Shown here piece by piece: positions 5,955-37,145 of a DNA stretch of 38,019 nt. Numbering within the stretch: the stretch's first letter is position 1; each line of letters opens with the position of its first letter. The position numbers and the translations under genes are program-made. Source of the stretch: Planctomycetota bacterium (GTDB lineage Bacteria > Planctomycetota > Planctomycetia > Gemmatales > Gemmataceae); NCBI GenBank assembly GCA_016872605.1, contig VGZI01000038.1, forward strand, positions 1 to 38,019, given 5' to 3'. The notes under the pieces are model-generated. The model was not told where the DNA came from, did not search any database, and worked only from the letters and a program-made list of their open reading frames with translations.

Positions 5955-5983
5955 CCCAGGGCTGAGGGCAGCGAAGCCCTGGG
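5955..5983. repeat. 29-bp intergenic palindrome (copy 1)
   Basis: Member of the palindrome family also found at 10937, 11035, 12504, 12550, 17756 and, in divergent form, at 37116. The outer stem is CCCAGGG/CCCTGGG. Compared with the most common copy, a G-C pair at the stem-loop boundary is changed to C-G on both sides, a compensatory change. It lies just 3' of the aminotransferase stop and upstream of hemB. Confidence 0.8.
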
Positions 5984-5997
5984 ATTAAGGAACCAAT

Positions 5998-7173
5998 TTA
6001 CGCCGCATAGACCTTGTTGGCCGCCGCCACGCCGGTGCCGGGCGTGACCTTACAGCCTACGCTCTGCAAGCACTGCTCGAGCGCCCCGAGCACCTGGAAC
6101 ACACAACCAGCGCGGGCGTTGAAGCCCATCAGGCCGATGCGCCAAACCTTGCCTTTGAAGTCACCCAGACCGCCGCCGATCTCGATGCCGAAATCGTTCA
6201 GGAGTTTCTTGCGCACGGCGAGATCATCGACACCCGCGGGGATCTTGACGGCATTCAACTGGGGCAACTGATGCCCTTCGGCAGCCGAGTAATCCAGGCC
6301 AAGGGCGTTGAGCCCCGCCTTGAGTGCGCGATGGTGCGTGAGATGTCGCGCCCAGCGTGCCTCAATTCCTTCTTCGAGCACGAGCCTTAGGCCCTCACGG
6401 ATGGCATATGTCATCGTAATCGGGGCAGTGTGATGGTAAAACCGGTCGGCCTCCCAGTATTTTTGCACCATCGTCAGGTCGAAGTACCAGCTCTGCACTT
6501 TGGTCTTGCGCTTGGCAATCGCCTCACCCGCTCGCGGACTGAACGACACCGGCGACAAACCGGGTGGACATCCGAGCCCCTTCTGCGTGCAACTGTAGAC
6601 GGCGTCGATCTCCCATTCATCCAATTTGACCGGTACACAGCCGAACGACGTGACCGCATCGACCAAAAGCAGCGTGTCGAATTCATGGCACAGCTTGCCG
6701 AGCTGTTCGATTGGCTGCCAGGCGCCGGTAGACGTCTCGGCTTGTACGATCGAGAGCACTTTCGGACGCACCTTGCTCAGCACATCGCGAATGCGGTCAA
6801 GCTCGAACACGGTTCCCCAGGGCGCATCGAGCTGAGTCACGCTCGCGCCGGTTCGGCCGGCAATCTCCGCCTGGCGGCCGCCGAAAAAACCGTTGACGCA
6901 CACGACGATCTTGTCGCCCGGCTCGAGCAGATTGACCATGCACGTCTCCATGCCAGCCATGCCCGTCGCGCTGATCGGAATCGTCAAGCGATTCTTGGTA
7001 AAGAATGCGTGCTGCAGCATCTCCTGCGTCTCGTTCATGAGCACAAGATACTGCGGATCGAGATGGCCCAAGAGCGGCGTGGCCATCGCCGTCAGCACGC
7101 GCGGATGCACGTCGCTGGGACCGGGACCAAGGAGGAGTCGAACGGGCGGGTTGAGTTGTCCAGGAATCGGCAC
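5998..7173 (-). CDS. Class V PLP-dependent aminotransferase (alanine-glyoxylate / serine-pyruvate aminotransferase type)
   Basis: A 391-residue fold-type I aminotransferase of the AGXT/SPT group, which moves amino groups between alanine or serine and glyoxylate or pyruvate. Key features: [14 protein letters not shown] near the N-terminus, [10 protein letters not shown] in the cofactor-binding region, [21 protein letters not shown] with the PLP-binding aspartate, and [15 protein letters not shown] with the PLP lysine K198. The C-terminal [10 protein letters not shown] is also typical. The start is GTG at 7173, supported by GAAGGA about 7 nt upstream. An isochorismatase-fold gene lies 22 bp upstream on the same strand, so the two may be co-transcribed. 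The exact donor and acceptor cannot be told from sequence. Confidence 0.92.
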
Positions 7174-7195
7174 AGTAGGTTCCTTCTTGTAAGAA

Positions 7196-7765
7196 TCATG
7201 CCAGCGCCTTCATGCGTTCTTGCACAAGAGCACTGATCGCCTTGAATTGTGGATGCGATGCGCCCCCCATCCATTCGAAGGTGCAGGTCTCTACCGTCGT
7301 CAGAATAGCTCCCGCTTGCTCCAGCCGGCGCAACGCGATCTCACGATCCATAGCATACCGGCTCGCCAACGCATCGACGGCGAGGTAGACGCGAAAGCCG
7401 GACGCCAACAGGTCGAGCGTCGTGTGCAGCACGCACACATGGGCCTCGATGCCGGTCAGCACAACCTTCGTTCGGCCAAGCCTGGAAAAACGATCCATCA
7501 ACCCAGGGACTGCGCACGAACTGAACGCCAGCTTGTCCGAGCGCGTCGGCAGGCGCTCCGCCAGCGGCGCGACGGTCGGCCCCAGCCCTTTCGGATATTG
7601 CTCGGTGGCGGTAATCTCGACGTCGAGCAACTTCGCGGCGTCAACAAGAAACGCGATGTTGCGCGTCGTGGCGTCGGCGCCGGGAATTTTCGCCATCAGC
7701 TTTTCTTGCACATCGATGACCAAGAGCGCCGATTCACGGGCCGATAGTTGTGTCGGGTGAGGCAT
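7196..7765 (-). CDS. Isochorismatase-family cysteine hydrolase
   Basis: A 189-residue cysteine hydrolase of the isochorismatase fold (YcaC/nicotinamidase-like). The catalytic triad is visible: D18 in ALLVIDVQEKL, K78 in RSDKLAFSSC, and C111 in VVLTGIEAHVCVLHT. The cis-peptide region before the cysteine (G-I-E-A-H-V-C) is the form common in YcaC-like members. The ATG at 7765 is preferred; an in-frame ORF extends to 7861, but that extension is low-complexity and overlaps the terminator hairpin of the gene before it. Substrate unknown; nicotinamidase is less likely because its metal-binding D-x-H motif is not seen. Confidence 0.88.
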   Translation of the reverse strand: MPHPTQLSARESALLVIDVQEKLMAKIPGADATTRNIAFLVDAAKLLDVEITATEQYPKGLGPTVAPLAERLPTRSDKLAFSSCAVPGLMDRFSRLGRTKVVLTGIEAHVCVLHTTLDLLASGFRVYLAVDALASRYAMDREIALRRLEQAGAILTTVETCTFEWMGGASHPQFKAISALVQERMKALA

Positions 7766-7836
7766 GGGGAGCGTTCCGGATTTCGCGGGCGGGTATGTTT
7801 TGTTTAGGATTCGCGGGCGGATGCGACAACGAAAAA

Positions 7837-7858
7837 GCCCAGGACGCGTGTCCTGGGC
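7837..7858 (-). terminator. Intrinsic terminator of the large HEAT-repeat gene
   Basis: On the minus strand a perfect 9-bp stem GCCCAGGAC/GTCCTGGGC with a 4-nt loop is followed directly by TTTTT (AAAAA at 7832-7836 on the plus strand). It lies 48 bp after the stop codon of the HEAT gene. A second 8-bp stem (AGCCGGCG at 7873-7880, CGCCGGCT at 7890-7897) lies between the stop and this terminator. Confidence 0.9.
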
Positions 7859-7905
7859 CATCGGTCTCGTTTAGCCGGCGATCGCAGAACGCCGGCTGAA
7901 CAACG

Positions 7906-10890
7906 CTAATTCTTGACCGCGATCCGATCGATCGCCGTGCGCGCCGCCTGCAATGCCGCCTGGTTGCCCTCCGTGTTGACAAGCTCGCGCAACGCCGGCA
8001 ACGCGGCGGCTGCATCCGGGCCGATGTTGCTCAACACATTGCACGCCATATGCCGCACATTGAAATTGGCGTCCTTTAGGCACTCAACCAAGGCGCCGAC
8101 GCCCGACTTCGATCGATACTGCGAATTCTGCATGCTCTGCAGGATCAACTGTCGTTGCCCCGAATCTTTCGCCGTTGCTAGAGCCTCGGCGAGAGGTCCA
8201 TGGCATTTTTGGCCAAAGTAACTACCGACCTGAATCGCGGTATTGCGAACGACGGCATTGGAGTCCTTCAGCCCCAGCAAGAATACCTGGAACGCTTCCT
8301 TGGAGTCCTGGCCGAAACTGCCGGCAAGACTTATTGCTGTCTGGCGAAGTTGTACCGAATCGTCCTTCATTGCCGGCACAAGCAGTGGCAATGCAAGTTT
8401 ACTTTTGTTGGTCTGCACGAGCGTTTGCAGAATCGTCGCGCGAGCGTTGGCGTCCTTCTCGACGTGGAACCGCTTGGCAACGAATTCCGGCCCATCGCCG
8501 CCTGAGTAGGCCACCAGCCACATGGCATTCCCGCGAATGGTTGGGTGCGTGTCGGCAATAGCGTCGCGCAGGGCCGGCAGCGCCTTGACAGTTTTCTGTG
8601 GGCCAAGGTTACGAAGCACCTGCGACGCTTGAACGCGCACGTTGAGGTCCGCGTCATTAAGCAACTCGGCAAGCTGCGGCACCCCCGCATCTCCGGTGCG
8701 ACTGAGCGTCCAGACCAGTTGATGGCGTAGACCACCCACGTCCTTGTCTCGAAGCAGGTCAATGATCGTCGGCGCCAACTCGGTGAGATCGCCCTGAATA
8801 TTGCTGATAGCGTAGATCGCTTGTTGCCGAACGCTCGTGTTCTTGTCCTTGAGGCCTTCCATAACGAGTTCCTTGCCGCGCACGCCGTAAATATGGGCAA
8901 CCTGGATGATCGCCGCGCGAGCGTTGGCGTCACCCTCTTTGAAGATGGTCCGTAGCATGGGGACCATTTTCTCCGGCGTGCCGCGGACGTTGTGCAAAGC
9001 CCAGATCGCTTGCTGACGAACATTGCCGTCCTTGTCTTTCAGGCCGGTCGTGACGATGTCAAGCGACTTCTCGCCGTAGATAAACGCGATCGAAAGGATG
9101 CTTGTCTTGACGGAACTGTCGCCGTCCTTGAATAGATCGGTCAAAACTGGGACCATCCGCTCGGGCGTGCCTCGCACGTTGCGAATCGCCCAGATGGCTT
9201 GCTGCCGAACCGAGGTGTCTTTGTCCTTCAGACCGTCGATGATGAGGTCCATCGACTTGTCGCCGTAAATGTAAACCATCTGCATGATCGCCCGCTTGGC
9301 TTCGGGCGCACCATCCTTGAATATCCCGTTCAGAATCGGAATGACGGCTTCGGGCGTGCCACGGACGTTCTGCAAAGCGTAGATCGACTGCTGGCGAACA
9401 CTCGAATCGCTGTCCTTGAACATCTTGGCGATGTCGACGGCATAAGCGCTCGCGCCGTTGCCGAACATGCTCACTCCCTGGACCGCCTGGAGCCGCACGC
9501 CGGATGATTTGTGTTTCAGGCCGTCGACAAAAATCGGCAGCACCTTATCCCGCTCAAGTTGCCGCTGCGCGAGCGTAAATGCGGCTTGCATCTTCAGGGC
9601 AAGGTCGTCATGCGCGAGGGCGGCGACCAGGATCGGCTGAGCGGTCGCCGTATCGAGGCCAACTTGGACCATGAGGCTAGCGGTGTTGATGCGAATCTTG
9701 TCGTTCTTGCTTTCAAGTGCTTTGGTGAGCGTCGGGCGCGGGTCCTCGCCAATCTGCGACAGGAACTGATATGCCTGCATGCGGACGTTCGGATTCATGT
9801 CGGTCATTGCATCTTTGACCTTGGGGGCAGCAAGCTTGGCCTGAATCCCGAGCTGCTGCAATGCACTGATCGAGAACTGCTTGACCTGATCGTCTTCATC
9901 GGCCAACGCGAATGCCAGTGCGATGACGACCGATTTGTCACCGACGCGCATCGGCAAAAGCGTCTGGGCGGCCTGCCTTCGCACGTCGACGTTCTTGTCG
10001 CCTAGCGCATCGACCAGGACAGGCACGCCTTCGGCGCCCATTTGCTGGATCGCCTGCGACGCCGACTGGCGTAGGTCCGGTCGAGCGTCCCTAAATCCCG
10101 CTTCGAGAGCCGGCAACCCGGTTTTGCCCAGCTTCGCAAGAATCGGCGCGTAATGATACGGCGCCGGAGACTCTTTGGAGAGATAGAGGTTTTTGAGCGC
10201 CGGGACGGCGTCCTTTGCATCGGAGCCAATCTCGCCGAGCGACGTGGCTGCTTGCATACGCGCTTCGTTCTTTTCCGACTTCAACAGGTCAATCAATGAA
10301 GGAACCGCGGCCGTGCCGAACCTCGCCAATGCCTCGCCCGCGGCCTGACGAACCTCGCCGCTCTCGTCCTTGAATGCGTTGACGAGGACTTCGATCGTCC
10401 TGTCGGGATCGCCCGCCAATCGACCCAGCGCGAACGCCGCCTTGCGACGAATCCCCTCGTTCTTGTCATTCATCAACTTGATGATCGTCGGCGCCGTTTC
10501 CTTGGCGTCGGGGCCGATCCAGCCGATGGTCCAGATCGCGTAGAACCTCGTATCATCGTCCTCGGAATTCAGCAGCTTCGACACCGGCTTGATGGCGCCG
10601 AGTCCAATTTTTGACAGTGTGATAGCCGCGTTAAGACGCAAATCCTCGTTCTTGGTTTGCAAAGCGTCGAGCAAATCGGGCAGCGCAGGCCCCGCTTTCG
10701 GCCCGAAGTCGGCCAGGCCCATGATCGCCTGCACTCGGCTTTCGACGTTGTCCTTTTGCTTGGCGGCCTTGAGCAATTCCGTCAGCGTTTGCTCGGGATC
10801 TTTCGGATCAAGCTTCTGCGCGTGGCCTGCGGTGGGCGAGACACCGAGCGCGAAAACGCTCACAAAAATAACAGCAACGATGTTACGCAT
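7906..10890 (-). CDS. Large secreted HEAT-repeat protein
   Basis: A 994-residue protein with a Sec signal peptide (MRNIVAVIFVSVFALGVSPTAGHA, cleavage near 24) followed entirely by HEAT/PBS-lyase-type helical repeats, each with the pattern D-x(2)-V-R-x(2)-A-x(2)-A-L. Such solenoids serve as binding scaffolds. Residues 498-686 hold three copies of a 63-residue double repeat (V-R-Q-Q-A-I-W-A through G-L-K-D-K-x(2)-S/N), and a fourth begins at 687. Their DNA is spaced by exactly 189 bp, which points to recent internal duplication. No catalytic domain or membrane anchor is seen, so the protein is probably periplasmic or outer-surface. It ends at a strong intrinsic terminator. Partner unknown. Confidence 0.93.
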   Translation of the reverse strand: MRNIVAVIFVSVFALGVSPTAGHAQKLDPKDPEQTLTELLKAAKQKDNVESRVQAIMGLADFGPKAGPALPDLLDALQTKNEDLRLNAAITLSKIGLGAIKPVSKLLNSEDDDTRFYAIWTIGWIGPDAKETAPTIIKLMNDKNEGIRRKAAFALGRLAGDPDRTIEVLVNAFKDESGEVRQAAGEALARFGTAAVPSLIDLLKSEKNEARMQAATSLGEIGSDAKDAVPALKNLYLSKESPAPYHYAPILAKLGKTGLPALEAGFRDARPDLRQSASQAIQQMGAEGVPVLVDALGDKNVDVRRQAAQTLLPMRVGDKSVVIALAFALADEDDQVKQFSISALQQLGIQAKLAAPKVKDAMTDMNPNVRMQAYQFLSQIGEDPRPTLTKALESKNDKIRINTASLMVQVGLDTATAQPILVAALAHDDLALKMQAAFTLAQRQLERDKVLPIFVDGLKHKSSGVRLQAVQGVSMFGNGASAYAVDIAKMFKDSDSSVRQQSIYALQNVRGTPEAVIPILNGIFKDGAPEAKRAIMQMVYIYGDKSMDLIIDGLKDKDTSVRQQAIWAIRNVRGTPERMVPVLTDLFKDGDSSVKTSILSIAFIYGEKSLDIVTTGLKDKDGNVRQQAIWALHNVRGTPEKMVPMLRTIFKEGDANARAAIIQVAHIYGVRGKELVMEGLKDKNTSVRQQAIYAISNIQGDLTELAPTIIDLLRDKDVGGLRHQLVWTLSRTGDAGVPQLAELLNDADLNVRVQASQVLRNLGPQKTVKALPALRDAIADTHPTIRGNAMWLVAYSGGDGPEFVAKRFHVEKDANARATILQTLVQTNKSKLALPLLVPAMKDDSVQLRQTAISLAGSFGQDSKEAFQVFLLGLKDSNAVVRNTAIQVGSYFGQKCHGPLAEALATAKDSGQRQLILQSMQNSQYRSKSGVGALVECLKDANFNVRHMACNVLSNIGPDAAAALPALRELVNTEGNQAALQAARTAIDRIAVKN
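8832..9399 (-). repeat. Three tandem 189-bp coding repeats in the HEAT gene
   Basis: The codons for V-R-Q-Q recur with starts near 9399, 9210, 9021 and 8832, a spacing of 189 bp each time. They encode 63-residue units that share NVRGTPE, the F-K-D/E-G segment, a YG(D/E)KS-type segment and GLKDK. The rest of the solenoid has much lower repeat-to-repeat identity. Confidence 0.9.
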
Positions 10891-10936
10891 GGGTGTGGCA
10901 TCCTGTGATTGGGGCGCACGTAGAATTGATCGAAAG

Positions 10937-10965
10937 CCCTGGGGTGAGCGCAGCGAACCCCTGGG
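10937..10965. repeat. 29-bp intergenic palindrome (copy 2)
   Basis: The core GGGGTGAGCGCAGCGAAC is identical to copies 4 and 5, with one A-to-T change in the outer stem. It lies 47 bp upstream of the HEAT gene start and is paired in opposite orientation with copy 3, about 70 bp away. Confidence 0.85.
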
Positions 10966-10980
10966 GTCACAACTTGCCTC

Positions 10981-11004
10981 CCCTCTCCCCGCCGGGGGAG
11001 AGGG
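10981..11004. repeat. CCCTCTCCCC hairpin between paired palindromes
   Basis: CCCTCTCCCC at 10981-10990 faces GGGGGAGAGGG, forming a near-perfect GC-rich stem with a very short loop. It sits between palindrome copies 2 and 3, so the whole 10937-11063 stretch can fold into three stem-loops. It lies 3' of the first DUF2330 gene and may help end that transcript, though no T-tract follows. Confidence 0.6.
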
Positions 11005-11034
11005 GGCGGGGGTGAGGGGGCGAACGCCTCACAG

Positions 11035-11063
11035 CCCAGAGGTTCGCTGCGCTCACCCCTGGG
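11035..11063. repeat. 29-bp intergenic palindrome (copy 3)
   Basis: Inverted relative to copy 2: the core GGTTCGCTGCGCTCACC is exact and the stem is CCCAGA/CCTGGG with one mismatch. It starts 20 bp from the stop codon of the DUF2330 gene at 11083. Confidence 0.85.
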
Positions 11064-11082
11064 CTTCAACGATTCAACTAGA

Positions 11083-12468
11083 TCATGGCGGAGACGACGG
11101 CAGCATTTCTTCGTACTCCGAGCGATCTTCGGCGCCGTTGTAGCGAGCGGGAATGATCACAAGATCGTCGTTCATTTCATCGCGGGCGAAGATCTTACGG
11201 AACTTGGTGATGAACAGGCTCTCGGTCAGATGGCCGGCGAGCTGTTGCAGGTTCTTGACGTCGTCGGCCGGGGCGTGACGGACGAGATAACCAAACGGGC
11301 GTTCCTGCTGCGCCTTGGCCAGGCGAGCGCGAATGACCTTGTAGATCGCCTCGGCACGAGCCGGGTCCTTGACGTCGGCTTGAGTGAAACCCTCATCGAC
11401 ATTGGGAACCTTCTCGCTGTACGGCGCCTTGCCGGCGAACACATCCACGTCGCCCTTGGTCAACTTGCGGGCCCATTCCATGGTCGTTGGGATGTGGCCC
11501 TTAGCATTGGGCTGCGGGCGCTGACGAGGTTGGAACTGAAAATTGAGCTCACGCGCCTTGGCCATGAGAGCAGGAATCTGCCCCTTCATGTCGTCGAGCC
11601 AGATTTGACCTCGGCCTGGGATACCTCCCTGGCAGCCGCGCGACCAATCCAGCATCGTCAACCAGTTGTATTGGTACGACATGTCGCCCTGCAGGTCGAC
11701 TTTGAACGGCGCCTGGACGTAGAACAAGGCTTCCGTCTTCTCGCGCACCGAAATTTGCGTGATCTTGAGCGGGTAGATCAGGTTCTCGGACTTGAACTGA
11801 AAACGCGTCGGAGAAACTTCGCCGTCGAACGTGCCGTCCTTGTTGCGTTTCATCTGCATCGTGTCGATCTTCATGACGGTGAAAATCCACTTTTTCTGGA
11901 TGTAGTGGTTGAGCGTCGCTTCATCGCCGGAGTAGTTGTACTTGTTGTCCTTGAGCCATTGGAAAAGGTCGTCAGCCCGTTCGGCGGTGATGATCTTGTA
12001 ATCGAGCGAGCCGACGATGCCCGCTTCGAGAACGATCACCTTGGGTTTTTCTGATTCGTCATTTTGGCGGCGATCGGAGTCGGCCGTGGCGCTGGCCTGC
12101 GGTGCGCCGCCAAAGCCTCCTTTGCCTCGGCCAAAACCGTATTGCGGCAGAATCTTCGACACCGGCGACTGGCGTTGCTTCAGGATTGTGTAGACCGCCA
12201 GATGCTTGAAGAAATCGCGCGGCATTTCGTTCAGCTTCGGCTGCGTCGGCGTCGGAATGACCATGCCGAAATCGAGCGCGTTACCTTCGAACTTGGGCTG
12301 CACCGTGAACGTTTCGACCTTCTCGGCCGGGTCCCACGTGATAAACACTTTTTGCGCCGGCTGCAAGATATCGGCGTTCTTGGCCGAGAAGTAGCAACAG
12401 GCGGCTTGCGACGACGCGGGCACAATCGCGGCCAGCGTCAACGCGGAGAGAAGCCAACAAAAACGCAT
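11083..12468 (-). CDS. DUF2330 secreted protein, paralogue 1
   Basis: A 461-residue exported protein of the DUF2330 family, whose function is unknown. A signal peptide (about residues 1-22, ending near SSQA) is followed by ACCYFSA with a double cysteine, the usual start of the mature family member. The start at 12468 is fixed by AAGGAG about 8 nt upstream. The protein ends YNGAEDRSEYEEMLPSSPP. It is closely related to the neighbour at 12595-13989, with near-identical stretches in the first 100 mature residues (for example VFITWDPAEKVETFTVQP) and around QISVREKTEALFYVQAPF, so the pair arose by tandem duplication. Differences concentrate around residues 105-150, where a Gly/Ala-rich linker varies. 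No membrane anchor or known catalytic motif is seen. Confidence 0.9.
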   Translation of the reverse strand: MRFCWLLSALTLAAIVPASSQAACCYFSAKNADILQPAQKVFITWDPAEKVETFTVQPKFEGNALDFGMVIPTPTQPKLNEMPRDFFKHLAVYTILKQRQSPVSKILPQYGFGRGKGGFGGAPQASATADSDRRQNDESEKPKVIVLEAGIVGSLDYKIITAERADDLFQWLKDNKYNYSGDEATLNHYIQKKWIFTVMKIDTMQMKRNKDGTFDGEVSPTRFQFKSENLIYPLKITQISVREKTEALFYVQAPFKVDLQGDMSYQYNWLTMLDWSRGCQGGIPGRGQIWLDDMKGQIPALMAKARELNFQFQPRQRPQPNAKGHIPTTMEWARKLTKGDVDVFAGKAPYSEKVPNVDEGFTQADVKDPARAEAIYKVIRARLAKAQQERPFGYLVRHAPADDVKNLQQLAGHLTESLFITKFRKIFARDEMNDDLVIIPARYNGAEDRSEYEEMLPSSPP

Positions 12469-12503
12469 GCGAGTTCTCCTTGAGATGGCTGATTTTCGGG
12501 AAG

Positions 12504-12532
12504 CCCAGGGGTGAGCGCAGCGAACCCCTGGG
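12504..12532. repeat. 29-bp intergenic palindrome (copy 4)
   Basis: A perfect stem CCCAGGGG/CCCCTGGG around the conserved core. It forms a head-to-head pair with copy 5, 17 bp away, in the short gap between the two DUF2330 genes. Confidence 0.88.
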
Positions 12533-12549
12533 ATGCGAGCGCGACCGAT

Positions 12550-12578
12550 CCCAGGGGTTCGCTGCGCTCACCCCTGGG
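12550..12578. repeat. 29-bp intergenic palindrome (copy 5)
   Basis: Exact reverse complement of copy 4, ending 16 bp from the stop codon of the upstream DUF2330 gene. The two copies could also pair with each other to make one long hairpin spanning 12504-12578. Confidence 0.88.
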
Positions 12579-12594
12579 CTTCACAACAAAAAGA

Positions 12595-13989
12595 TCATGG
12601 CGGCGACGACGGCAGAATCTCTTCGTATTCCGAATTGTCTTCCACGCCGTTGTACCGAGCGGCGACGAGCACGAGGTCGTCGTTCATCTCATCCCGCGCG
12701 AAAATCTTGCGGAACTTCGTAATGAACAAATCGTCGCGCAGGTGACCGAGCAATTGATTGAGGGCCCGAACGTCTTCCGCCGGCGCTTCGCGGACGAGGT
12801 AACCGAACGGACGTTCCTTGTGAGCCTTGGCAAGGCGAGCCTGGATGACTTTGAAGATCGCTTGTGCGCGTTGCGGATCCTTTAGGTCAGCCTGGGTGAA
12901 GCCCTCGTCGACATCGGGAACCTTCTCGCCATAGGGGGCTTCGCCACGCAGAATCTTGACGTTGTCCGCAGACAGCTTGCGGGCCCACTCCATCGTGGTC
13001 GGGATATGGCCCTTGTTATTCGGCTGCGGTCGTTGCCCTGGGACGAAGCGGAAGTTGAGTTGGCCGGCTTTCTGAAGCAGCGCTTGTGTTTGCGGCTGGA
13101 ACGCCGTTAGCCATTCCTGGCCCTTGCCGGGCAACCCGCCAGCACATCCGATCGCGCCTTGCAGCATTGGAACCCATGTGTACTGGTAGGTCATGTCGCC
13201 GGGCAGATCGACTTTGAACGGTGCCTGCACATAGAACAACGCTTCGGTCTTCTCACGCACCGATATTTGCGTGATCTTGAGCGGATAAATCAGCTTCTCG
13301 CTCTTGAACGTGAATCGGGTCGGCGTGACGTCGCCGGCGAAGCTGCCGTCCTTGTTCCGCTTCATCTGCATCGTGTCGATCTTCATGACCGTGAAGTACC
13401 ACTTCTTCTGAACGTAAAAGTTGAGCGTCGCTTCATCGCCGGAGTAGCTGTACTTGTTCTTCTTGAGCCAGTCGTACAGAGCATCCGCCGTGTCGGCCTC
13501 GATGACTTTGAAATCGAGCGATCCGACCAGGCCTTCTTGGAGAATGCGAACCGGCGGACGTTTCGGCGCGAATCCGGCGGCGTCCTTGCCGTCGGCGTTG
13601 GCCGACTGGGCCACTGGACCGCCGCCCGCGCCCGGCGCGTTGAATATCCGATGTTGCGGCAGCAACTTCGAGTGCGGCATCTCGCGATTCTTCAAGATCG
13701 TGTAAACGGCAAGATGCTTGAAGAAGTCACGCGGCATCTCGTGCAGCTTGGGTTCAGTAGGCGTCGGCACCACCATACCGAAATCGAGTGCGTTCCCCTC
13801 GAACTTCGGCTGCACCGTGAACGTCTCGACTTTCTCGGCCGGGTCCCAGGTGATGAACACCTTTTGGGCGGGCTGCAAGATGTCCGCGTTCTTCGCTGAG
13901 AAATAACAACACGCCGCCTGGCTGGCCGACGGTTGCAGGCCGGCAAGCGCGAGCGCCGCCAGCGTGAGTGCACCCAAACGATTCCCCAT
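12595..13989 (-). CDS. DUF2330 secreted protein, paralogue 2
   Basis: The second DUF2330 member, 464 residues. The ATG at 13989 is chosen over an in-frame start at 14019 because AAGGAG lies about 8 nt upstream and the signal peptide begins there (MGNRLGALTLAALALAG, cleavage after SQA). The mature protein opens with ACCYFSAKNADILQPAQK, identical to paralogue 1, and ends YNGVEDNSEYEEILPSSPP. Between them the two genes share order and length throughout, with divergence in the linker around residues 105-160. The family role is unknown; the conserved cysteine pair after the signal peptide suggests an extracytoplasmic disulphide or metal site, which is inference. Confidence 0.9.
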   Translation of the reverse strand: MGNRLGALTLAALALAGLQPSASQAACCYFSAKNADILQPAQKVFITWDPAEKVETFTVQPKFEGNALDFGMVVPTPTEPKLHEMPRDFFKHLAVYTILKNREMPHSKLLPQHRIFNAPGAGGGPVAQSANADGKDAAGFAPKRPPVRILQEGLVGSLDFKVIEADTADALYDWLKKNKYSYSGDEATLNFYVQKKWYFTVMKIDTMQMKRNKDGSFAGDVTPTRFTFKSEKLIYPLKITQISVREKTEALFYVQAPFKVDLPGDMTYQYTWVPMLQGAIGCAGGLPGKGQEWLTAFQPQTQALLQKAGQLNFRFVPGQRPQPNNKGHIPTTMEWARKLSADNVKILRGEAPYGEKVPDVDEGFTQADLKDPQRAQAIFKVIQARLAKAHKERPFGYLVREAPAEDVRALNQLLGHLRDDLFITKFRKIFARDEMNDDLVLVAARYNGVEDNSEYEEILPSSPP

Positions 13990-14199
13990 GTTCTCTCCTT
14001 CAGATGAGCGACGAGTCATTGAAGCTCAGAGCGAGTGCAATGCTTCAATCGCCGTCGCGAATCGACCATCATACTGCACCAATCCAACTAAATTGTAGAC
14101 GAATCGGCACCGGATTTGGATTGCGCAACCGAGGGCCGACATTAGGGATAGAATAGCCGGGAAAGGCATCGTAGTCGATCACGATTTTGGAGGAATACC

Positions 14200-14673
14200 A
14201 TGTCCGCATTGCAAGCGTTAGTTGAGCAATATCTCGCTGGCCCGAAGCAATTACGCGCTGGCGTCGCCGGCATGTCGCGCGAGCAGCTTTTGGCCAGGCC
14301 GATCACCGGGAAATGGAGCACGCTGGAAGTCGTCGCGCATCTGGCCGACTTCGAGCCGATCCTGGCCGACCGGATGAAGCGAGTGATAGCCGAAGACAAG
14401 CCGACGCTGGTCGGCGCTGATGAGCAAAAGTTCACTGCCAATTTATTCTACCACGATCGCGATGTGCAGGAGGAGCTAACGATCATCGAAGCGACACGCA
14501 GCCAGCTGGCGCGCATTCTGCGCAAGCTCCCTGACGCCGCACTTCAGCGCGTCGGCAACCATACGGAGCGCGGTCCCCGCACCCTGGAGCAACTCCTCAA
14601 AGGCGCGATCGACCATCTGCCGCATCACTTGAAGTTCGTGACGGAAAAACGAGCGGCTCTTGGATTGAAGTAA
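14200..14673 (+). CDS. DinB/YfiT-like putative metal-dependent protein
   Basis: A 157-residue four-helix-bundle protein of the DinB superfamily. The family signature is visible: KWSTLEVVAHLADFE, with the first metal-ligand histidine H47, and AIDHLPHHLKFV near the C-terminus with H139 and H143 as likely further ligands. Related proteins bind nickel or zinc, and some act as thiol transferases, but the substrate here cannot be told. The ATG at 14200 has a good ribosome binding site (GGAGGA about 6 nt upstream). The gene stands alone on the plus strand; the MFS gene converges on it 39 bp downstream. Confidence 0.88.
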   Translation: MSALQALVEQYLAGPKQLRAGVAGMSREQLLARPITGKWSTLEVVAHLADFEPILADRMKRVIAEDKPTLVGADEQKFTANLFYHDRDVQEELTIIEATRSQLARILRKLPDAALQRVGNHTERGPRTLEQLLKGAIDHLPHHLKFVTEKRAALGLK

Positions 14674-14712
14674 CCGCTCCCCGTTTAGCGCTCGCATGGT
14701 GCCCCGTGGGCA

Positions 14713-16575
14713 TTAAGTACTCGGCTGTTTCGTCGGCTCTTCTCCGATCACCTTGGTGGCATCGATAAAGAGCGACACGACGCCGATGAACGCGAAGACG
14801 GCGGCGCAAACGAGAAAGAGGGCGTCATAGCCTTCTTTTTTTGTCGAAAATGCGGAGGTCAATGGAACAAGAACGAGGGGGGAGACGAAGCCGCCGAGGT
14901 TGCCCCACATGTTGCCCCAACCGAGGACGACGCCGACATTGCGTTTGCCGACGTCGAGGTTGTAGCCCCAGATGGCGGGCAAGCCCAGATCGTGCACGAA
15001 GGACATCACCGCCAAGAGTATCACGACCGGCCAGGCCCCTTCGATGAACCAACAGCCCAGGAATGCCGCTGCCGTTGCAAATCGCGTCGAAGCAATGGGG
15101 AAGCTGCGACCGAGACGTTGCCCATACGCCGACGTCATCCAATCGGTCCACCAGCCGCCGATAATCAGCGTCGGCAATGCGACCGCGAACGGCAGGCTGA
15201 CCATGATGCTCTTCTCGACACCCTCGGGAATCTGGTGCACTTCAAAGAGGTACAGCGCCAGTTGATTGCCGATGACAATCCAGCCAAAGTTCGTGCCGAA
15301 CTGCACGATCGAGCTGGCCCACAAGCTGCGATCAGTAAGTATGCTCCACCACAGCGTCGATGCCGGGATCGGCGGTTCGCTGTCGCCGGCGGCTTTCTCC
15401 GTCGCCTCGGCGAGCTGCGCCTCGGCTTCGTTGGTCATGAAATGCTCTCGCGGCGTATCGCGATGAAACCAGAAAAACACGACGGCCAGCGCAACGCCGA
15501 TCACACCATAAACCATCAACACCGGCGGCCAACCATCACCGAGCAACTGCCGAACGCGACCTGGAAAAACCACTTCAAACAAGAATCGGTTGAGCCGCGT
15601 CACCTTGTCGGCGTCGGATCGCCGGCTCGAGTCGTCAAGCAGATCGAGCGCCTGCCGCGTGAGTTTGCCCTTGATCGGCTCGAGATCGATCCCGTCAAAC
15701 AGATCGGGTTCGCCGAGCAGGCGATTGATGATGGCCGCCAGACGCTCGCGTTGGTCGCTGGTAGTCTCTTCCTTCTCCGACATGCCTGCAAGAACAAGAA
15801 CGAGTTGCCGTTCCGAATCGGTCAGCTTCGTTCCCAAGCGCGGAGCGGCGTCCTGCAAGATTGGCGGGATCCTCTTGTCGGTGATTCCGGAGAAGTTGGC
15901 CGACGCTGCCAAAACCGGTCCCGCGCTACCCGGCGACACGGCTAGGCCGACGGTGGAGACGGCCGATGCCGGCGCCAGTTTCGGATCCTTGTCGGAAATC
16001 AAGAGAAGATCGCGGGCAAAACCCTTTGCGTCGAGAATGTCGCGGTCGGCGTCAACTACAAGCGATGGCTTCGACACCGGCATGAAAACCAACATCAAGA
16101 ACATCGTGATGGTCGGCGTGACAGCACCGCCGATGCGGCCGCCCAGGGAGACGATTCCACTCGCCAGGCCACGCTGCTCGTAGGGGACCCACCGTCGAAT
16201 TAGGCCCGCGCATGCCGGATACGCGCCAGCCTCAAAGAGCCCGCAGCCGAAGCGCAGAATCAGCAGGAGCACGAAACCGTCGGCAAACCCAATCAATCCG
16301 GTAAGCACCGACCAGATCGCAAGGTAGATCGACAGCATCCAGCGCGTGCCGTAGCGGTCCGCCAGCCAGCCGCCGGGAAGCTGGCCGAACGCGTAGGTGA
16401 GGAAGAACGCGCTGAGCATGAAGCCCGTTTCGCCAGGCGTGAGCTTCATCCCTTCGCGCACGTACGGCGTGATGTACCCTAGGCAATAGCGGTCGAGGTA
16501 AAGCAACACCGCCACGCAGACGGTGAGCGCGAGAACATAATAGCGTACCGATGTCGGCCGTTCGGTTTCGGTCAT
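14713..16575 (-). CDS. MFS transporter with large periplasmic loop insertion
   Basis: A major facilitator protein of the ACS (anion:cation symporter, hexuronate/glucarate-like) type: LYLDRYCLGYITP in helix 1, the loop 2-3 motif GGWLADRYGTRWML, RFGCGLFEAGAYPACAGLIRRWVP in helix 4 and FGTNFGWIVIGNQLALYLFE in the second half. At 620 residues it is about 190 longer than usual. The excess is one hydrophilic stretch, about residues 168-347, between helices 5 and 6, which by standard MFS topology faces the periplasm. The insert is rich in Asp, Ala and Leu with helical stretches (DSERQLVLVLAGM, QRERLAAIINRLL). Substrate unknown. The start ATG at 16575 matches the family N-terminus. Confidence 0.9.
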   Translation of the reverse strand: MTETERPTSVRYYVLALTVCVAVLLYLDRYCLGYITPYVREGMKLTPGETGFMLSAFFLTYAFGQLPGGWLADRYGTRWMLSIYLAIWSVLTGLIGFADGFVLLLILRFGCGLFEAGAYPACAGLIRRWVPYEQRGLASGIVSLGGRIGGAVTPTITMFLMLVFMPVSKPSLVVDADRDILDAKGFARDLLLISDKDPKLAPASAVSTVGLAVSPGSAGPVLAASANFSGITDKRIPPILQDAAPRLGTKLTDSERQLVLVLAGMSEKEETTSDQRERLAAIINRLLGEPDLFDGIDLEPIKGKLTRQALDLLDDSSRRSDADKVTRLNRFLFEVVFPGRVRQLLGDGWPPVLMVYGVIGVALAVVFFWFHRDTPREHFMTNEAEAQLAEATEKAAGDSEPPIPASTLWWSILTDRSLWASSIVQFGTNFGWIVIGNQLALYLFEVHQIPEGVEKSIMVSLPFAVALPTLIIGGWWTDWMTSAYGQRLGRSFPIASTRFATAAAFLGCWFIEGAWPVVILLAVMSFVHDLGLPAIWGYNLDVGKRNVGVVLGWGNMWGNLGGFVSPLVLVPLTSAFSTKKEGYDALFLVCAAVFAFIGVVSLFIDATKVIGEEPTKQPST

Positions 16576-16683
16576 GAAGGGAATTTATGAGAGGCGAGCC
16601 GGAATTGCAAAGGAGGTTCGGGCGCGTGGTTTAGGTATAGCGCTCACATGGCGCGGACCAAGTTCCAGGATAATCGCGGACCC

Positions 16684-17679
16684 TCATAGATTTGCAATCA
16701 ACCGTTCGGTGATCGATTCGGTGTTTCCCGTGCCTCCGAGGTCGCGCGTCAGACCGGCGTTTGCCTCCAGCGTCTTGCGGACCGATCGCTCAATGCGCGT
16801 GGCGGCGTCGCGTTGGCCGATGTGGTCGAGCATCATCGCCGCCGAGCGCAAGAGGGCAATTGGATTCGCCAGCCCCTTTCCTGCGATGTCGGGCGCGCTG
16901 CCGTGGACCGCTTCGAAGACGGCATAGCGCTCACCGATGTTGGCGCCGGGAACAACGCCAAGCCCGCCGACGAGCCCCGCGCACAGATCGCTGACCACGT
17001 CGCCGAACAAGTTCTCCATGACCAGCACATCGTACGGCGAAGGGTCGAGGGCCAGTTCGAGGGACAGGTGGTCGATGGTTTGCTGCTCGTATTCCAGGAA
17101 TGGAAAGTCATCCGCCGTCTGGTCGGCGATCTTCAGGAACATGCCGTCGCTGAGGGGCATGACCGACGCCTTGTGGACAACGGTCACTTTGCGTCGCCCT
17201 TGATGCCGGGCTAGTTCGAATGCGTAGCGCAAGATGCGTTCGGCAGCATCGCGCGTCACGAGCCGCAAGCTCTCAACAACGCCCGGCACGACGACATGCT
17301 CCATGCCGGCGTACAGGCCTTCGGTATTCTCGCGCACGACGATCAGGTCGACTTTCTCGTAAGGAACCTTGATACCCGGAAGCGTCTGCACGGGGCGGAC
17401 GCTGGCAAAAAGTTCGAGTTCCTTGCGCAGGCGAACGTTGATCGAGCGATAGCCTTTGCCGACTGGCGTGGTACAAGGCCCTTTCAGAGCTACGCGGTGC
17501 TTGCGGATGAGATCGAGCGTCTGATCGGGGAGTGGATCGCCAAATTTTTCGACGGCGTCGAGCCCGGCGGGGGCGGGGATCCAGTCGAGGCTAGCGCCGG
17601 CCGCCTGGAGAATCCGCTGCGAGGCCGACATGACCTCTGGACCAATGCCGTCCCCAGCTATCATCACGACGGAAGTCAT
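16684..17679 (-). CDS. Isocitrate/isopropylmalate-type dehydrogenase (NAD-dependent IDH or homologue)
   Basis: A decarboxylating beta-hydroxyacid dehydrogenase of 331 residues. Signatures: IAGDGIGPEV at the N-terminus, SINVRLRKELELFASVRP (the S-x-N-x-x-L-R-K form seen in isocitrate and homoisocitrate enzymes rather than LeuB), VVRENTEGLYAG, the metal-binding aspartates in MENLFGDVVSDLCAGLVGG, and AVFEAVHGSAPDIAGKGLANP. The H-G-S-A-P-D-I-A-G-K loop is typical of NAD-dependent enzymes, so NAD-isocitrate dehydrogenase is the most likely role. The ATG at 17679 has GAGGTG just upstream; a GTG two codons earlier (17685) overlaps that site and is less likely. Confidence 0.9.
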   Translation of the reverse strand: MTSVVMIAGDGIGPEVMSASQRILQAAGASLDWIPAPAGLDAVEKFGDPLPDQTLDLIRKHRVALKGPCTTPVGKGYRSINVRLRKELELFASVRPVQTLPGIKVPYEKVDLIVVRENTEGLYAGMEHVVVPGVVESLRLVTRDAAERILRYAFELARHQGRRKVTVVHKASVMPLSDGMFLKIADQTADDFPFLEYEQQTIDHLSLELALDPSPYDVLVMENLFGDVVSDLCAGLVGGLGVVPGANIGERYAVFEAVHGSAPDIAGKGLANPIALLRSAAMMLDHIGQRDAATRIERSVRKTLEANAGLTRDLGGTGNTESITERLIANL

Positions 17680-17755
17680 GCCCACCTCACTGTCTGCGCT
17701 TCGTTGCGTTCAACGTAAGAATCGTGCGGACGGAAAACAAGACCCGCAGAGCCAT

Positions 17756-17784
17756 CCCGCAGGTTCGTTGCGCTCACCAGCGGG
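17756..17784. repeat. 29-bp intergenic palindrome (copy 6), covarying stem
   Basis: The core GGTTCGTTGCGCTCACC differs by one base from the common form, but the outer stem is CCCGC/GCGGG instead of CCCAGG/CCTGGG. Both sides changed together, keeping the pairing. It lies in the 138-bp gap between two divergent genes, the only copy not located 3' of a gene. Confidence 0.8.
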
Positions 17785-17817
17785 TTTCGAGGACGGCGCG
17801 CGCGTAGAATAGGAATC

Positions 17818-19359: not shown

Positions 19360-19519
19360 AGGGTGCACGACATCGTTTGCAAACGGCGCGGGAGGGCGAG
19401 GCTCCTGCCGAGCCGCGAGCCCGCGAAATACTCGATTTCGGACGAGTATCCTGGCGCTTCCGGCTCGGCAGGAGCCTCGCCCTCCCGAAGCAGGCCACGC
19501 AGACCATGTCGTGCACCCT
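19360..19519. repeat. 160-bp near-palindromic element
   Basis: A 27-bp perfect inverted repeat, 19389-19415 against 19461-19487 (core GGGCGAGGCTCCTGCCGAG), is nested inside a 14-bp perfect inverted repeat, 19360-19373 against 19506-19519 (AGGGTGCACGACAT). The middle also contains ATACTCG/CGAGTAT. The element can form a long cruciform or RNA stem. A related element lies at 23411-23520. Confidence 0.85.
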
Positions 19520-24966: not shown

Positions 24967-25028
24967 GGATCGTAGGCCTCACGCTCCGCGTGAGCAATGC
25001 CTCACGCGGAGCATGTGGTCTACGATCC
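24967..25028. repeat. 62-bp imperfect palindrome (28-bp arms)
   Basis: The arms 24967-24994 and 25001-25028 match at 25 of 28 positions with a 6-nt loop; the outer ends GGATCGTAG and CTACGATCC pair and the inner ends GCTCCGCGTGAG and CTCACGCGGAGC pair perfectly. It lies in the divergent gap between the EIIA fusion and the JAMM protease genes. Confidence 0.85.
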
Positions 25029-29806: not shown

Positions 29807-29811
29807 GCTTC

Positions 29812-31200: not shown

Positions 31201-31287
31201 GTTGTTTCCAGCCGTTTCGCCACGCCCTTTTTTCGCCCAGGATGGTCACGGCGACATTCCCATCATAGCGAACATGCGTCACAGCGA

Positions 31288-31347: not shown

Positions 31348-31359
31348 CGTTACCACACG

Positions 31360-32202: not shown

Positions 32203-32244
32203 TCGTAGGGTCCTTCCGAAAACGGTTTTGATAGTCGCTGTCGC

Positions 32245-34017: not shown

Positions 34018-34025
34018 CGATCCAA

Positions 34026-34061
34026 GTGGTGAGTGGTGGTCATGCACTACTCACCACTCAC
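34026..34061. repeat. GTGAGTGGT-rich imperfect palindrome
   Basis: GTGGTGAGTGGTGG and CTACTCACCACTCAC face each other around a short middle with CATG. It separates the HIT and GT-C-like genes and lies 7 bp after the HIT stop codon. Confidence 0.6.
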
Positions 34062-34067
34062 TACCAA

Positions 34068-34412
34068 TCACCCCGGCGGCCAATGAAACGCCCGGCCTCC
34101 CATTAGGTGCATGTGCAAGTGCGGCACCGTCTGCCCCCCGCGATCCAGGCAATTGACCACGATACGATACCCGTCATCTAGCCCGAGCTGCTTCGCCAGC
34201 TTCACCGCCACCAGATGCAGATGCCCGAGCAAATCGCGGTCGGCATCGGTCAGTTCGGCGTGCGTCGCAATCACCTTGCGCGGAATGATCAACACGTGCA
34301 CCGGCGCTTGCGGGTTGATGTCGTGAAACGCCAGGCACAGATCGTCCTCATACGCGATTTTGGCCGGTATTTCCTTGTCGATGATTTTTTGAAAGATGTT
34401 GTCTTTGAGCAC
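34068..34412 (-). CDS. HIT-family (HinT-like) nucleotide hydrolase
   Basis: A 114-residue histidine-triad protein like E. coli HinT, which hydrolyses purine nucleoside phosphoramidates. Core motifs: NIFQKIIDKEIPAKIAYED, HVLIIPRKVIATHAEL, and the triad VPHLHMHLMGGR (H-x-H-x-H). GTG at 34412 is taken as start because GGAGG lies about 8 nt upstream and the length then equals the family norm; an ATG nine codons earlier (34439) lies inside an inverted repeat. The gene is followed by the membrane glycosyltransferase candidate. Confidence 0.9.
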   Translation of the reverse strand: MLKDNIFQKIIDKEIPAKIAYEDDLCLAFHDINPQAPVHVLIIPRKVIATHAELTDADRDLLGHLHLVAVKLAKQLGLDDGYRIVVNCLDRGGQTVPHLHMHLMGGRAFHWPPG

Positions 34413-34437
34413 GGCAATCGCCTCCGTAAGAATAGCC

Positions 34438-34605
34438 ATCAGCTTTCAGCCAGTCAGTGTAGTGGCGAGTGACGAGTGGAGAGTGGCGAGAGAAGAAGTC
34501 CAATCTTATTCTCTCCACTCTCCACTCGCACTCGCCACTGCCGGGGTGAATGACCGTGGCAGCACGCCCAGTCCTCTGAGCGGGCGCCTCTGGCTGAAAG
34601 CTGAT
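34438..34605. repeat. Nested inverted repeats upstream of the HIT gene
   Basis: A 16-bp perfect outer repeat (ATCAGCTTTCAGCCAG at 34438-34453 with its complement at 34590-34605) encloses an imperfect 30-nt inner pair (34461-34494 against 34509-34539, AGTGGCGAGTG and TTCTCTCCACTC). The right arm is followed by GCTGACGGCTGATAGC, a partial tandem of the outer arm. It fills most of the divergent gap between the HIT and RNase HII-like genes. Confidence 0.8.
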
Positions 34606-34642
34606 CGCTGACGGCTGATAGCTATTGTACGGAGACACGCAC

Positions 34643-35593: not shown

Positions 35594-35644
35594 GCCAATT
35601 CCTCGCCGCATCATCGCTCCCGCAGAGCGCAGTTCGCACTTCGA

Positions 35645-35952
35645 TCAAACGGAGGCGCCTTTGTCCGTTTCATGTTCGTGTGTTTTCTGTTCTTGGTCTT
35701 TCGAATCCGAATTGCCGAATGTTATCGATGTCAAATGCTCAGCGCCCAACAGAAAATACAGGGCCAATGCGGCCCATCCGGCTCCGTACAAGAGGTAGCC
35801 GACCGGGCTACTATCTTGAAGCGGGGTCGCCGCCCTCAGTTGCGAGAAGCCAATCGAACATCGAGAAAGAAAACGACATTCGTAACCGTCTGAATCATGC
35901 ACCAGACGCCGGCAAAGCGAACGCCGAGGCCGAACCAGTCCTGGGGTTTCAT
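35645..35952 (-). pseudogene. Frameshifted small two-helix membrane protein
   Basis: From the ATG at 35952 (GGAG about 6 nt upstream) the frame codes for MKPQDWFGLGVRFAGVWC and a hydrophobic helix, then stops at TGA 35836-35838. In another minus-strand frame, from about 35850 down to the stop at 35645, the sequence reads as a second helix (VGYLLYGAGWAALALYFLLGAEHL) and a charged tail. Joined by a one-base shift near 35840-35870 they give one protein of about 102 residues of two-helix type. The upstream part of the second frame (to 36022) is Cys/Arg-rich and unlike coding sequence. It is a recent frameshift or a sequence error. Confidence 0.55.
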
Positions 35953-36025
35953 GTTGAACTCCACAAAGGAAAATACACGTGGGCCGTTGCAGTCCAACCT
36001 TTCGTTGCACGCCACCTGGCAACGA

Positions 36026-37084
36026 TCACGGAATCCAGTTCGCGTCGCTGGTAATGCTCAGGCAGAACTCGGCGAGCACCTGGGCGGCGTGGTGGAGGTC
36101 CTTTAGGCTCACCACCTCCACCGGGCTGTGCATGTAGCGATTGGGGATACTGAGCAGCCCGGCGGCGACGCCTTCGCGCGTGAGTTGGATGGCGTTGGCG
36201 TCGGTGCCGGTCGCCTTGGGCACGCCGCGAATCTGCACGGCAATCTCCTTGGCCTTGGCGGCGGCGACCAGGCGGTCGTGCACGTGCGGGTTGATGTTCG
36301 GCCCGCGAAAGATGACCGGGCCGCCGTTGAGCTTCGTCTCGCCGAGTTGCTTCTTCTCGTTGCCAGGCGTGTCGGTGGCATGCGTCACATCGACGGCGAT
36401 GCCGACAGTCGGATGGATGCCATAGGCGCTGGTCGTGGCGCCGCGCAGGCCAATCTCTTCCTGCACGGTGGAGACGCAGAACACCGCCGCCTGAAGTGGC
36501 TTGCCATGCAGGAGCCGCAGCGTCTCCATGACGGTCCATACGCCGACTTTGTCGTCACAGCCAGGCGACGTGAACAGATCGTTGCGCATCTCGGCACACG
36601 ACAGCTCGACGGTGATCGTGTCGCCCAGGGTGACGAGCGATTCGGCCTCGGCTCGGTCCTTGGCGCCGATGTCGATCCAGATGTCGGTGAACTCGGGCAG
36701 CTTCTTGCGCTCCTCCGACGTCATGACATGCGGGGCCTTGCGCGACACGACGGCGGTGACCGGCCCGTTCTTGGTCCAGACCGTGAGCCGTTGGCCGAGC
36801 AGGATCGGTATGTCCCAGCCGCCCATCGGCTGCACGTAGAGGTAGCCGTCCGAGTCGATGTGCTCGATCATCAGTGCGAGCTGATCGCAATGCCCGGCCA
36901 GCATGATGCGCGGCGACCCGCCGGGGTTGAGCGCGGCGATGACGTTGCCGTGTAGATCGGTGCGCAGCTCGTCGGCGAGCGGCCTGGCCCAGGCGCGTAC
37001 AACTTCCTGGATGCGCTGCTCGTAACCCGACGGGCTTGGGGTGGACACGAGCTTTTTGAGGAACTCATACGATGCGTCGTGCAT
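36026..37084 (-). CDS. M42-family metallo-aminopeptidase
   Basis: A 352-residue dinuclear-zinc peptidase of the M42 (FrvX/tetrahedral aminopeptidase, formerly endoglucanase M) family. Ligands and catalytic residues: H65 and D67 in MLAGHCDQLALM, D177 in SPGCDDKVGVW, E209-E210 in STVQEEIGLRGA, D232 in IAVDVTHATD and H319 in NRYMHSPVEVV. The G-T-D-A-N segment is also conserved. It trims peptides in the cytoplasm. The start ATG at 37084 has GGAG about 6 nt upstream and matches the family N-terminus (F-L-K-x-L-V-x-T-P-S-P-S-G-Y-E). Confidence 0.95.
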   Translation of the reverse strand: MHDASYEFLKKLVSTPSPSGYEQRIQEVVRAWARPLADELRTDLHGNVIAALNPGGSPRIMLAGHCDQLALMIEHIDSDGYLYVQPMGGWDIPILLGQRLTVWTKNGPVTAVVSRKAPHVMTSEERKKLPEFTDIWIDIGAKDRAEAESLVTLGDTITVELSCAEMRNDLFTSPGCDDKVGVWTVMETLRLLHGKPLQAAVFCVSTVQEEIGLRGATTSAYGIHPTVGIAVDVTHATDTPGNEKKQLGETKLNGGPVIFRGPNINPHVHDRLVAAAKAKEIAVQIRGVPKATGTDANAIQLTREGVAAGLLSIPNRYMHSPVEVVSLKDLHHAAQVLAEFCLSITSDANWIP

Positions 37085-37115
37085 GGAGTGCTCCAGTGTT
37101 TAGCCACTCGGGAAG

Positions 37116-37145
37116 CCCCGGGGTTCGGAGTACCTCATCCCGGGG
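37116..37145. repeat. Divergent member of the 29-bp palindrome family (copy 7)
   Basis: A perfect CCCCGGG/CCCGGGG stem; on the minus strand the loop reads ATGAGGTACTCCGAAC, which keeps TGAG and CGAAC of the main family but changes the middle. Flanks AAG and CTT extend the stem. It starts 8 bp after the stop of the BNR protein gene and precedes the M42 gene start. Confidence 0.7.

Follow-up and report, generated by a model that had tools for sequence, protein, structure and literature searches.

Among repetitive extragenic palindromes (REPs), the best-described are those of E. coli and Pseudomonas, in which a GTAG foot adjoins a hairpin. They lie between genes, form inverted doublets (REP doublets forming hairpins, REPINs) and bracket the gene of a REP-associated tyrosine transposase (RAYT), a Y1-type HUH protein. 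In the available part of PMC8266576, the recognition experiments concern GTAG systems, and a mismatched zone of the stem was needed for activity in E. coli REPs. CGTC REPs are also tagged hairpins, mostly in HH dimers, with a CGTC foot, loops of 4-5 nt, mostly CCA tails and no associated transposase; they had no known enzyme in 2013 (PMC3733652, in the part at hand). It has been reported that class 3 TnpA-Y1 comprises 24 proteins, mostly from Planctomycetes, Acidobacteria and Proteobacteria (PMC6006769, also in part). In this study, we analysed a 38,019-nt stretch of DNA from a Planctomycetota bacterium of the Gemmataceae (assembly GCA_016872605.1, contig VGZI01000038.1, positions 1 to 38,019 of the forward strand; hereafter the window), which is contig 38 of a draft genome of 6.70 Mb in 372 contigs. 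It carries seven copies of a short palindrome with the foot [G/C]A[A/C]G. These are very probably non-autonomous single-strand hairpin elements, that is, REPs whose inverted pairs are REPINs, dispersed in this Gemmataceae-type planctomycete by a cognate transposase of the Y1-type HUH kind, which reads the foot together with the adjoining hairpin. This conclusion is drawn from the repeats, their covariation, the geometry of the doublets, their mostly intergenic placement, their presence or absence between sister species and the bracketing of a conserved HxH...Y gene family in sister genomes and other genera.

The hairpin family and its arrangement

A covariance model, R1, was built from 32 own-genome copies (alignment A2), including six of the seven in the window. 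R1 recovered all seven palindromes that a first-pass annotation had described. Copy 1 (5951..5985, + strand; 54.0 bits, E 5.8e-11) has a GACG foot, the stem CCCAGGGC/GCCCTGGG and an AT tail. Copy 2 (10933..10967, +; 53.4 bits), with one T-T mismatch in the stem, and copy 3 (11033..11067, -; 58.0 bits) are the left and right halves of a foot-out doublet. A second foot-out doublet, with a spacer of 13 nt, consists of two consensus elements, copy 4 (12500..12534, +) and copy 5 (12548..12582, -), at 64.1 bits each. Copy 6 (17754..17788, -; 49.4 bits) has the variant stem CCCGC..GCGGG and lies in a divergent gap, and the six others lie 3' of a minus-strand gene. Copy 7 (37114..37149, -; 27.2 bits, E 1.2e-4), outside the training set of the model, has the tip subtype GG-TACT-CC. 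The loop thought to be common to all seven was exact in four and had one mismatch in two, and another subtype, TGAGGTACTCCGAA, was found at 37116. Stem mismatches occurred at 10937, 17756 and 37116, and a G-T pair in the 11035 stem.

The family extends far beyond the window. The exact 13-nt loop TTCGCTGCGCTCA occurred 82 times in the genome, and the reversed-pattern control did not occur. R1 gave at least 150 own-genome matches at E<=1 and at least 140 at E<=1e-3. The consensus on the foot strand is a 35-nt element, GAAG CCCAGGGG TGAGCGCAGCGAA CCCCTGGG AT, laid out as GAAG, stem, GA, tip hairpin, GA, stem and AT. In A2, where 30 of the 32 rows had been picked by the exact loop, paired cells reached 96.9% compared to 84.9% in shuffled alignments, and double-change cells numbered 31 compared to 7.5. 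An alignment of 142 distinct rows, fitted to the model and so biased towards structure, gave 93.8% paired cells against 85.4% shuffled, and 97 double changes against 17. These results indicate that the proposed covariation of the stems is real.

Arrangement was examined in 156 elements: of 166 matches in 100 own-genome regions the best 150 were taken, the seven in the window were added and one overlap was removed; the regions lie outside the clusters on contigs C137, C211, C275, C289 and C314. The foot was GAAG in 112 of the 156. For motif counts, two elements shorter than 33 nt were set aside, and [GC]A[AC]G was found in 131 of the remaining 154, while GTAG or GTGG was found in none. Since the foot is not GTAG, this is not a standard REP family. 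Genes were predicted with a simple codon-usage finder. By these predictions, 91 elements lay in co-directional gaps, 18 in divergent gaps, 13 in convergent gaps, 28 inside genes and 6 at edges. Apart from the edge cases, 122 of 150 were outside predicted genes, compared to 86.5% of random positions falling within genes. The elements are thus short palindromes in high copy number, mainly extragenic and with a conserved 5' foot tetranucleotide, as is general for REPs.

Neighbouring pairs within 150 bp were foot-out in 31 of 33 cases and tandem in the other two. The foot-out spacers, typically of 10-13 nt, measured 7-15 nt in 30 pairs and 65 nt in one, the window pair 10933/11033, and no common sequence was seen by eye among the 30 doublet spacers listed. 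Inverted doublets that can fold as one hairpin, with a narrow spacer range, are what characterises REPINs. Family size, covariation and doublets together support a REP system of the type of bacterial interspersed mosaic elements (BIMEs) with selection on the folded form, as first proposed. The supposed preference for 3' gene ends did not extend to the genome, where the nearest gene end was 3' in 70 and 5' in 52 of the 122 intergenic elements, and convergent gaps were not favoured over divergent ones. The first-pass interpretation was therefore partly supported; its REP/BIME part holds and its 3'-end part does not.

One reading frame of the element is GAA GCC CAG GGG TGA (E-A-Q-G-stop), and six predicted own-genome genes stop at that TGA. 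In-frame copies were seen within long, conserved-looking genes at loci L145, L121, L123, L134 and L099. The host genes include UvrA-like and NuoG-like ones, named by eye, and the encoded peptide often resembles K-P-x-G-E-R-S-E-P.

Fold of the foot strand

By DNA folding, the "loop" holds further structure, namely T, GA, a tip hairpin, GA and A. A single strand of copy 4 folded at -11.2 kcal/mol (z -4.8), and the whole doublet at 12500-12582 folded into one hairpin at -51.7 kcal/mol (z -14.1). GA flanked the tip on both sides in 138 of the 154 elements, and was kept in 65 of the 81 elements with a non-consensus loop. The tip sequence was GC-GCA-GC in 85 of these 138; others were GC-GAA-GC, GC-GTA-GC, GG-TACT-CC and GGG..CCC. 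The tip was paired in 116 of the 138, whereas 2000 shuffles averaged 94.6 and never exceeded 105. In a list of 17 elements from other genomes, picked by eye and with seven rows that repeat a locus or belong to the genus, 14 retained GA..GA, and their tips included GCC-TT-GGC and ATCAC-AAC-GTGAT.

In DNA, tandem GA flanked as in T-GA-G / C-GA-A adopts sheared pairing, and mini-hairpins of the type d(GC-GNA-GC) have exceptional stability. Sheared GA pairs would then be open to the foot strand and only TC/TC to its complement, a difference that may serve as built-in strand discrimination. For the consensus copy, folding gave nearly equal energies for the two strands (-11.2 and -10.7 kcal/mol), and the proposed strand difference is therefore derived from chemistry and not from the folding program.

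A candidate transposase and its relatives

A search with PF01797 found eight Y1 genes in the own genome and 46 in seven genomes of the genus. None of the matches lay on the contig of the window, in line with the earlier remark that the window has no RAYT. A transposase flanked by the same palindrome was sought, and a gene family was found in relatives. The R1 scan for flanking elements covered the loci of 33 of the 46 Y1 genes and singled out L074, a 176-aa gene with complete foot-out doublets of the window family on both sides. The copies bracketing the L074/L082 transposase have the tip subtype of copy 7. The stop codon of the L074 transposase is the TGA of the downstream element (L074 1798-1812). 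Homologues of the L074 protein were present in six of the seven genus genomes. R1 matches lay close on both sides in five of the eight strong genus homologues (L074/L082, L083, L084, L085 and L087), of which the L084 flanks scored lowest (23-30 bits).

The protein family is about 176 aa long and of the Y1-type HUH kind. A 30-member alignment (A5) was invariant at H98, H100, K120, W136 and Y157, among others. With PF01797, L074 scored 21.3 and just missed the cut-off of 23, and three homologues passed (27.1, 27.3 and 23.9 bits). An AlphaFold model had a mean predicted local confidence (pLDDT) of 85, with residues 20-37 poor. Its top PDB match was 4er8_A, the REP transposase of E. coli in complex with its hairpin (E 2e-4, template-modelling (TM) score 0.47). 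The HxH motif and one tyrosine on a modelled Y1 fold point to an HUH-Y1 enzyme. It lacks the marks of class 2 RAYTs, since the tyrosine motif is YILKQ and the like, not Y-I-x-x-N-P, and NCBIfam NF047646 gave 22.9 bits for L074 and 27.4 for its own-genome homologue on contig C51 against a cut-off of 80. The family motifs are mostly [TM]HxH and mostly Y-I-x-x-[Q/H]. In a 49-row tree, which excludes four of the 30 A5 rows (L253, L255, L257 and L259), the family stood apart from YIxxNP-type and class-3-like proteins (split 96/95). Class-1-like rows were attached to it by a long branch, and only 26% of the bootstrap trees set the family off as a single group, which makes its exact position provisional. 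IS200/IS605 elements (ISDra2, IS608) share the HUH-Y1 fold, and most Gemmataceae members share their Y-x-x-x-Q spacing. In contrast to those elements, the gene here is framed by several dispersed REPs or doublets, no insertion-sequence boundaries were seen, and one or two close homologues per genome stand against up to 100 and more repeats.

A scan of GTDB genomes with an eight-protein alignment gave 36 loci, 35 of them labelled Planctomycetota or a subgroup and one labelled only "bacterium"; several are presumably genus genomes again. The nearest named relatives were Gemmataceae and other Planctomycetota, mostly metagenome genomes. A repeat common to both gene flanks was found at 28 of 34 testable loci compared to 0 of 90 control pairs further out, and at 21 of 27 after seven loci taken as genus genomes were dropped. 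Over 30 loci outside the genus (171 kb), R1 gave 21 matches with E<=0.1, scoring up to 53 bits. Of these, 19 were no more than 122 nt from the gene (18 of 20 with L230 and L269 counted once). Hairpins with the foot [GCT]A[AC]G and the tail [AG]T numbered 44 in 13.7 kb of flanks compared to 6 in 50.8 kb of control DNA, and the gene flanks contained no GTRG-footed and no CGTC hairpins. Bracketing of a tyrosine transposase by the repeat, a further general feature of REPs, was thus seen in sister genomes and other genera, but not in the own genome.

Among 41 relatives, R1 copies were present in nine genomes under stricter filters. A strong homologue (E<=1e-38) occurred in seven of these nine and in none of the other 32, some of which had weak matches. 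As seven of the nine belong to one genus, the co-occurrence mostly reflects one lineage; genome G020 is an independent case of the link. G004, which is 74% complete, had R1 copies without a strong homologue.

Occupancy of the same gaps was then compared between sister species. The gaps at 12469-12594 and 10891-11082 had no copy in G002, G003, G005 and G006. No copy was found at 5930-5997 in the six genomes readable there, with the far neighbour confirmed in three, or at 37085-37152 in the five readable there, with two confirmed. The only R1 matches in these gaps were weak, one of 17.6 bits in L200 and two of 16.8 bits in L222 at another gap. Conversely, the 22-bp gap at 7174..7195 between the genes 5998-7173 and 7196-7861 is element-free in the window. 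A full foot-out doublet occupied it in G001, G003 and G005 (L212, L215 and L216), a single element in G006 (L213) and another repeat in G002, with both neighbour genes confirmed in all five. With a whole doublet found at one syntenic gap in some sister species and lacking there in others, doublets vary from species to species as whole units. Whether a copy was gained or lost was not proven at any single site. The elements are probably mobile, and we infer their activity.

Other palindromes often occupy these gaps in sister genomes. At the gap of the 37114 copy, a palindrome doublet with GTAG feet and an identical tip (GGTGGGTC GAGCGCAGCGA GACCCACC) occupies about 1410-1490 of L222 (G006:C100). 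The window genes 11083-12468 and 12595-13989 are tandem paralogues with 2 to 13 family matches per genus genome, and their spacers hold other palindromes in four sister species.

By analogy with TnpA-REP and IS200/IS605 (PMC8266576, PMC3116915, in the parts available), the protein would bind the foot strand of a folded single-stranded doublet and cut next to the foot; the strand, once excised or copied, would be joined at another site. On folding, the foot strand would form a basal stem, whose sequence may change as long as it stays paired, then two facing GA dinucleotides, which are conserved, and a small hairpin at the tip. The paired GA, expected to be sheared, may distinguish the strands. 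The foot may guide the choice of the cleavage site, as proposed for GTAG, with the AT/GT tail and the [GC]A[AC]G foot as candidate cleavage and guide sequences. The doublet would be the moving unit, and most singlets would be remnants.

Several findings weigh against dispersal by this transposase. Tight doublets held 60 of the 156 elements and the other 96 lay outside them. Identity was 0.847 for doublet members and 0.827 for singlets, a difference given without a significance test. A decayed partner was found on the tail side in 12 of 92 tested singlets and on the foot side in 1 of 92; such figures hint only faintly that singlets are decayed doublets. The 28 copies inside predicted genes also count here. 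A UvrA copy considered as a clean insertion proved ambiguous, because a REP-like stretch is common to G000 and G001; the alignment had an 18-nt gap in G006 and G004, with no motif match there in G003 and G005. The PDB match was weak: ISDra2 reached the same E, and lower down came IS608 and HUH-fold viral Rep domains. G010 carried 41 copies without a strong homologue. Outside the genus, 8 of 29 distinct loci had R1 matches near the gene; R1 matched nothing at the remaining 21, many of which had a shared repeat of different sequence. Of 33 loci, 16 had a footed hairpin of the pattern used next to the gene, 12 of them on both sides, and 17 had none. The own-genome homologue L086 (C51; 49% identical) and L089, read partly from record L233, taken as the same locus, were framed by a different, short-loop REP, [T/C]ACG-CCCGCAGCC-NNNN-GGCTGCGGG-AT, while a different palindrome framed L088; the hairpins that this one gene family serves are thus quite diverse. 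Finally, no transposase in the own genome, or in G001 (where the exact consensus also occurs), was found to be bracketed by exactly the commonest element of the own genome. The own-genome copies are orphaned, or the cognate transposase is missing from the draft.

Relation to described systems and other explanations

Compared to GTAG REPs, the elements here have the foot [GC]A[AC]G and, below a tip that is mostly GC-GNA-GC, a symmetrical GA/GA mismatch, and the two proteins scored with NF047646 were far below its cut-off, with a tyrosine motif without NP. Unlike CGTC REPs, they have a long structured tip, an AT/GT tail and a candidate transposase. Membership of the CGTC superfamily through the reverse complement (GACG foot) was ruled out, because the foot is 5' of the hairpin and loop and tail differ. 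No description of a GAAG-footed REP family was recognised in the open-access literature on REP/RAYT systems and planctomycetes. The available part of PMC8266576 had no word starting with GAAG, and that of PMC3733652 had the string twice, in an unrelated context in the one instance examined. On balance, we lean towards a further Planctomycetota REP/transposase lineage beside GTAG and CGTC. It would combine a separate HUH-Y1 family and its own foot code, [G/C]A[A/C]G, with a DNA-specific hairpin, in which tandem GA lies under a GNA mini-hairpin, the basal stem drifts and the foot strand is told apart by sheared GA against TC/TC. The system is a variant on the REP/RAYT scheme and may be related to the class 3 TnpA-Y1 proteins, which are rare.

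Alternatively, the system could be a subgroup of class 3 TnpA-Y1 with atypical flanks and hence already known, which we regard as unlikely. Class 3 proteins are also of similar size (178 aa), with a planctomycete bias, extended N-terminal conservation and high-copy REP-like flanks (PMC6006769, in the part available), and the weak hits L093, L094 and L096 have a WLPGD.RG stretch in common with the window-linked family. Compared by their description there, however, class 3 proteins have the marks NHVH, Y----Q and the foot CnGA, against [TM]HxH, Y-I-x-x-[Q/H] and [GC]A[AC]G here, and the tree placed class-3-like rows, so called by motif only, apart from the family.

It is improbable that the elements were moved by another Y1 enzyme of the genus, the product of its class-1-like TnpA genes, which have CCCAGGG stems at their ends too. 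These genes (L058, L060, L063, L070 and L075) have DHVH or DHIH, and YIxxQ..HH where read. They are flanked by CCCAGGG[C/T] hairpins, with the loop agagcgcagcgcc at L075, so the stem is common to two transposase types. Their flank feet differ (such as AATCAG, TTAAAG and ACAG), the AT tail is missing, and R1 reached at most 25.8 bits on their flanks against 23-44 beside the candidate gene (HSSGDYK-type), with 16 of 20 at 28 or more, ranges that touch. Outside the genus, where class-1-like loci were not searched, R1 lands on the HSSGDYK-type gene.

An RNA role as terminator or 3'-end stabiliser, with spread by selection and not by a transposase, is the least probable explanation: RNA roles have been hypothesised for REPs (PMC3733652, available part), and strong hairpins lie near gene ends, with the six gene stops within the element, but sister species lack copies at the same gaps, convergent gaps are not preferred and strand bias is small (53 same strand, 38 opposite). 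Intrinsic terminators were ruled out, as the element has no T tract and, of the six copies in 5000-18000, only that at 17754 overlaps a terminator-like match. No known RNA family matched at its gathering score.

Dispersal by the Y1-type transposase remains our preferred reading. It would supply another foot code together with a candidate enzyme family, which by record titles spans two classes of a single phylum, in genomes whose whole doublets come and go.

The window holds other repeats as well. R. baltica is a planctomycete. Different REP families coexist in R. baltica (PMC3733652, in the part available), and the window family may overlap with them. At 10980..11005, inside the spacer of the 10933/11033 doublet, lies a palindrome of a different repeat family, CCCCTCTCCCC..GGGGAGAGGGG, which would explain the unusual 65-nt spacer; a search of 544,852 bp of the own genome found 14 copies of the pattern. 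At 24967-25028 there is an inverted doublet of another kind, whose GTAG feet point outward (GTAG..CTCACGC TCC GCGTGAG) and which is apparently a canonical GTAG-type REPIN. At L031 (G000:C143, 394-498), the contig end truncates a Y1 gene, and after the gene come two elements like GTAG-CCACGGGT-GGAGCGCAGCGAA-ACCCGTGG, which join a GTAG foot to nearly the tip of the window family. Two further nested or long inverted repeats occupy 19360-19519 and 34434-34609, and parts of the former recur at L205 (G000:C60) and L006 (G000:C12). At L080 of G001 (913-1179), eight GTCAGGCT-NNNN-AGCCTGAC hairpins, mostly 30 bp apart, adjoin another Y1 gene.

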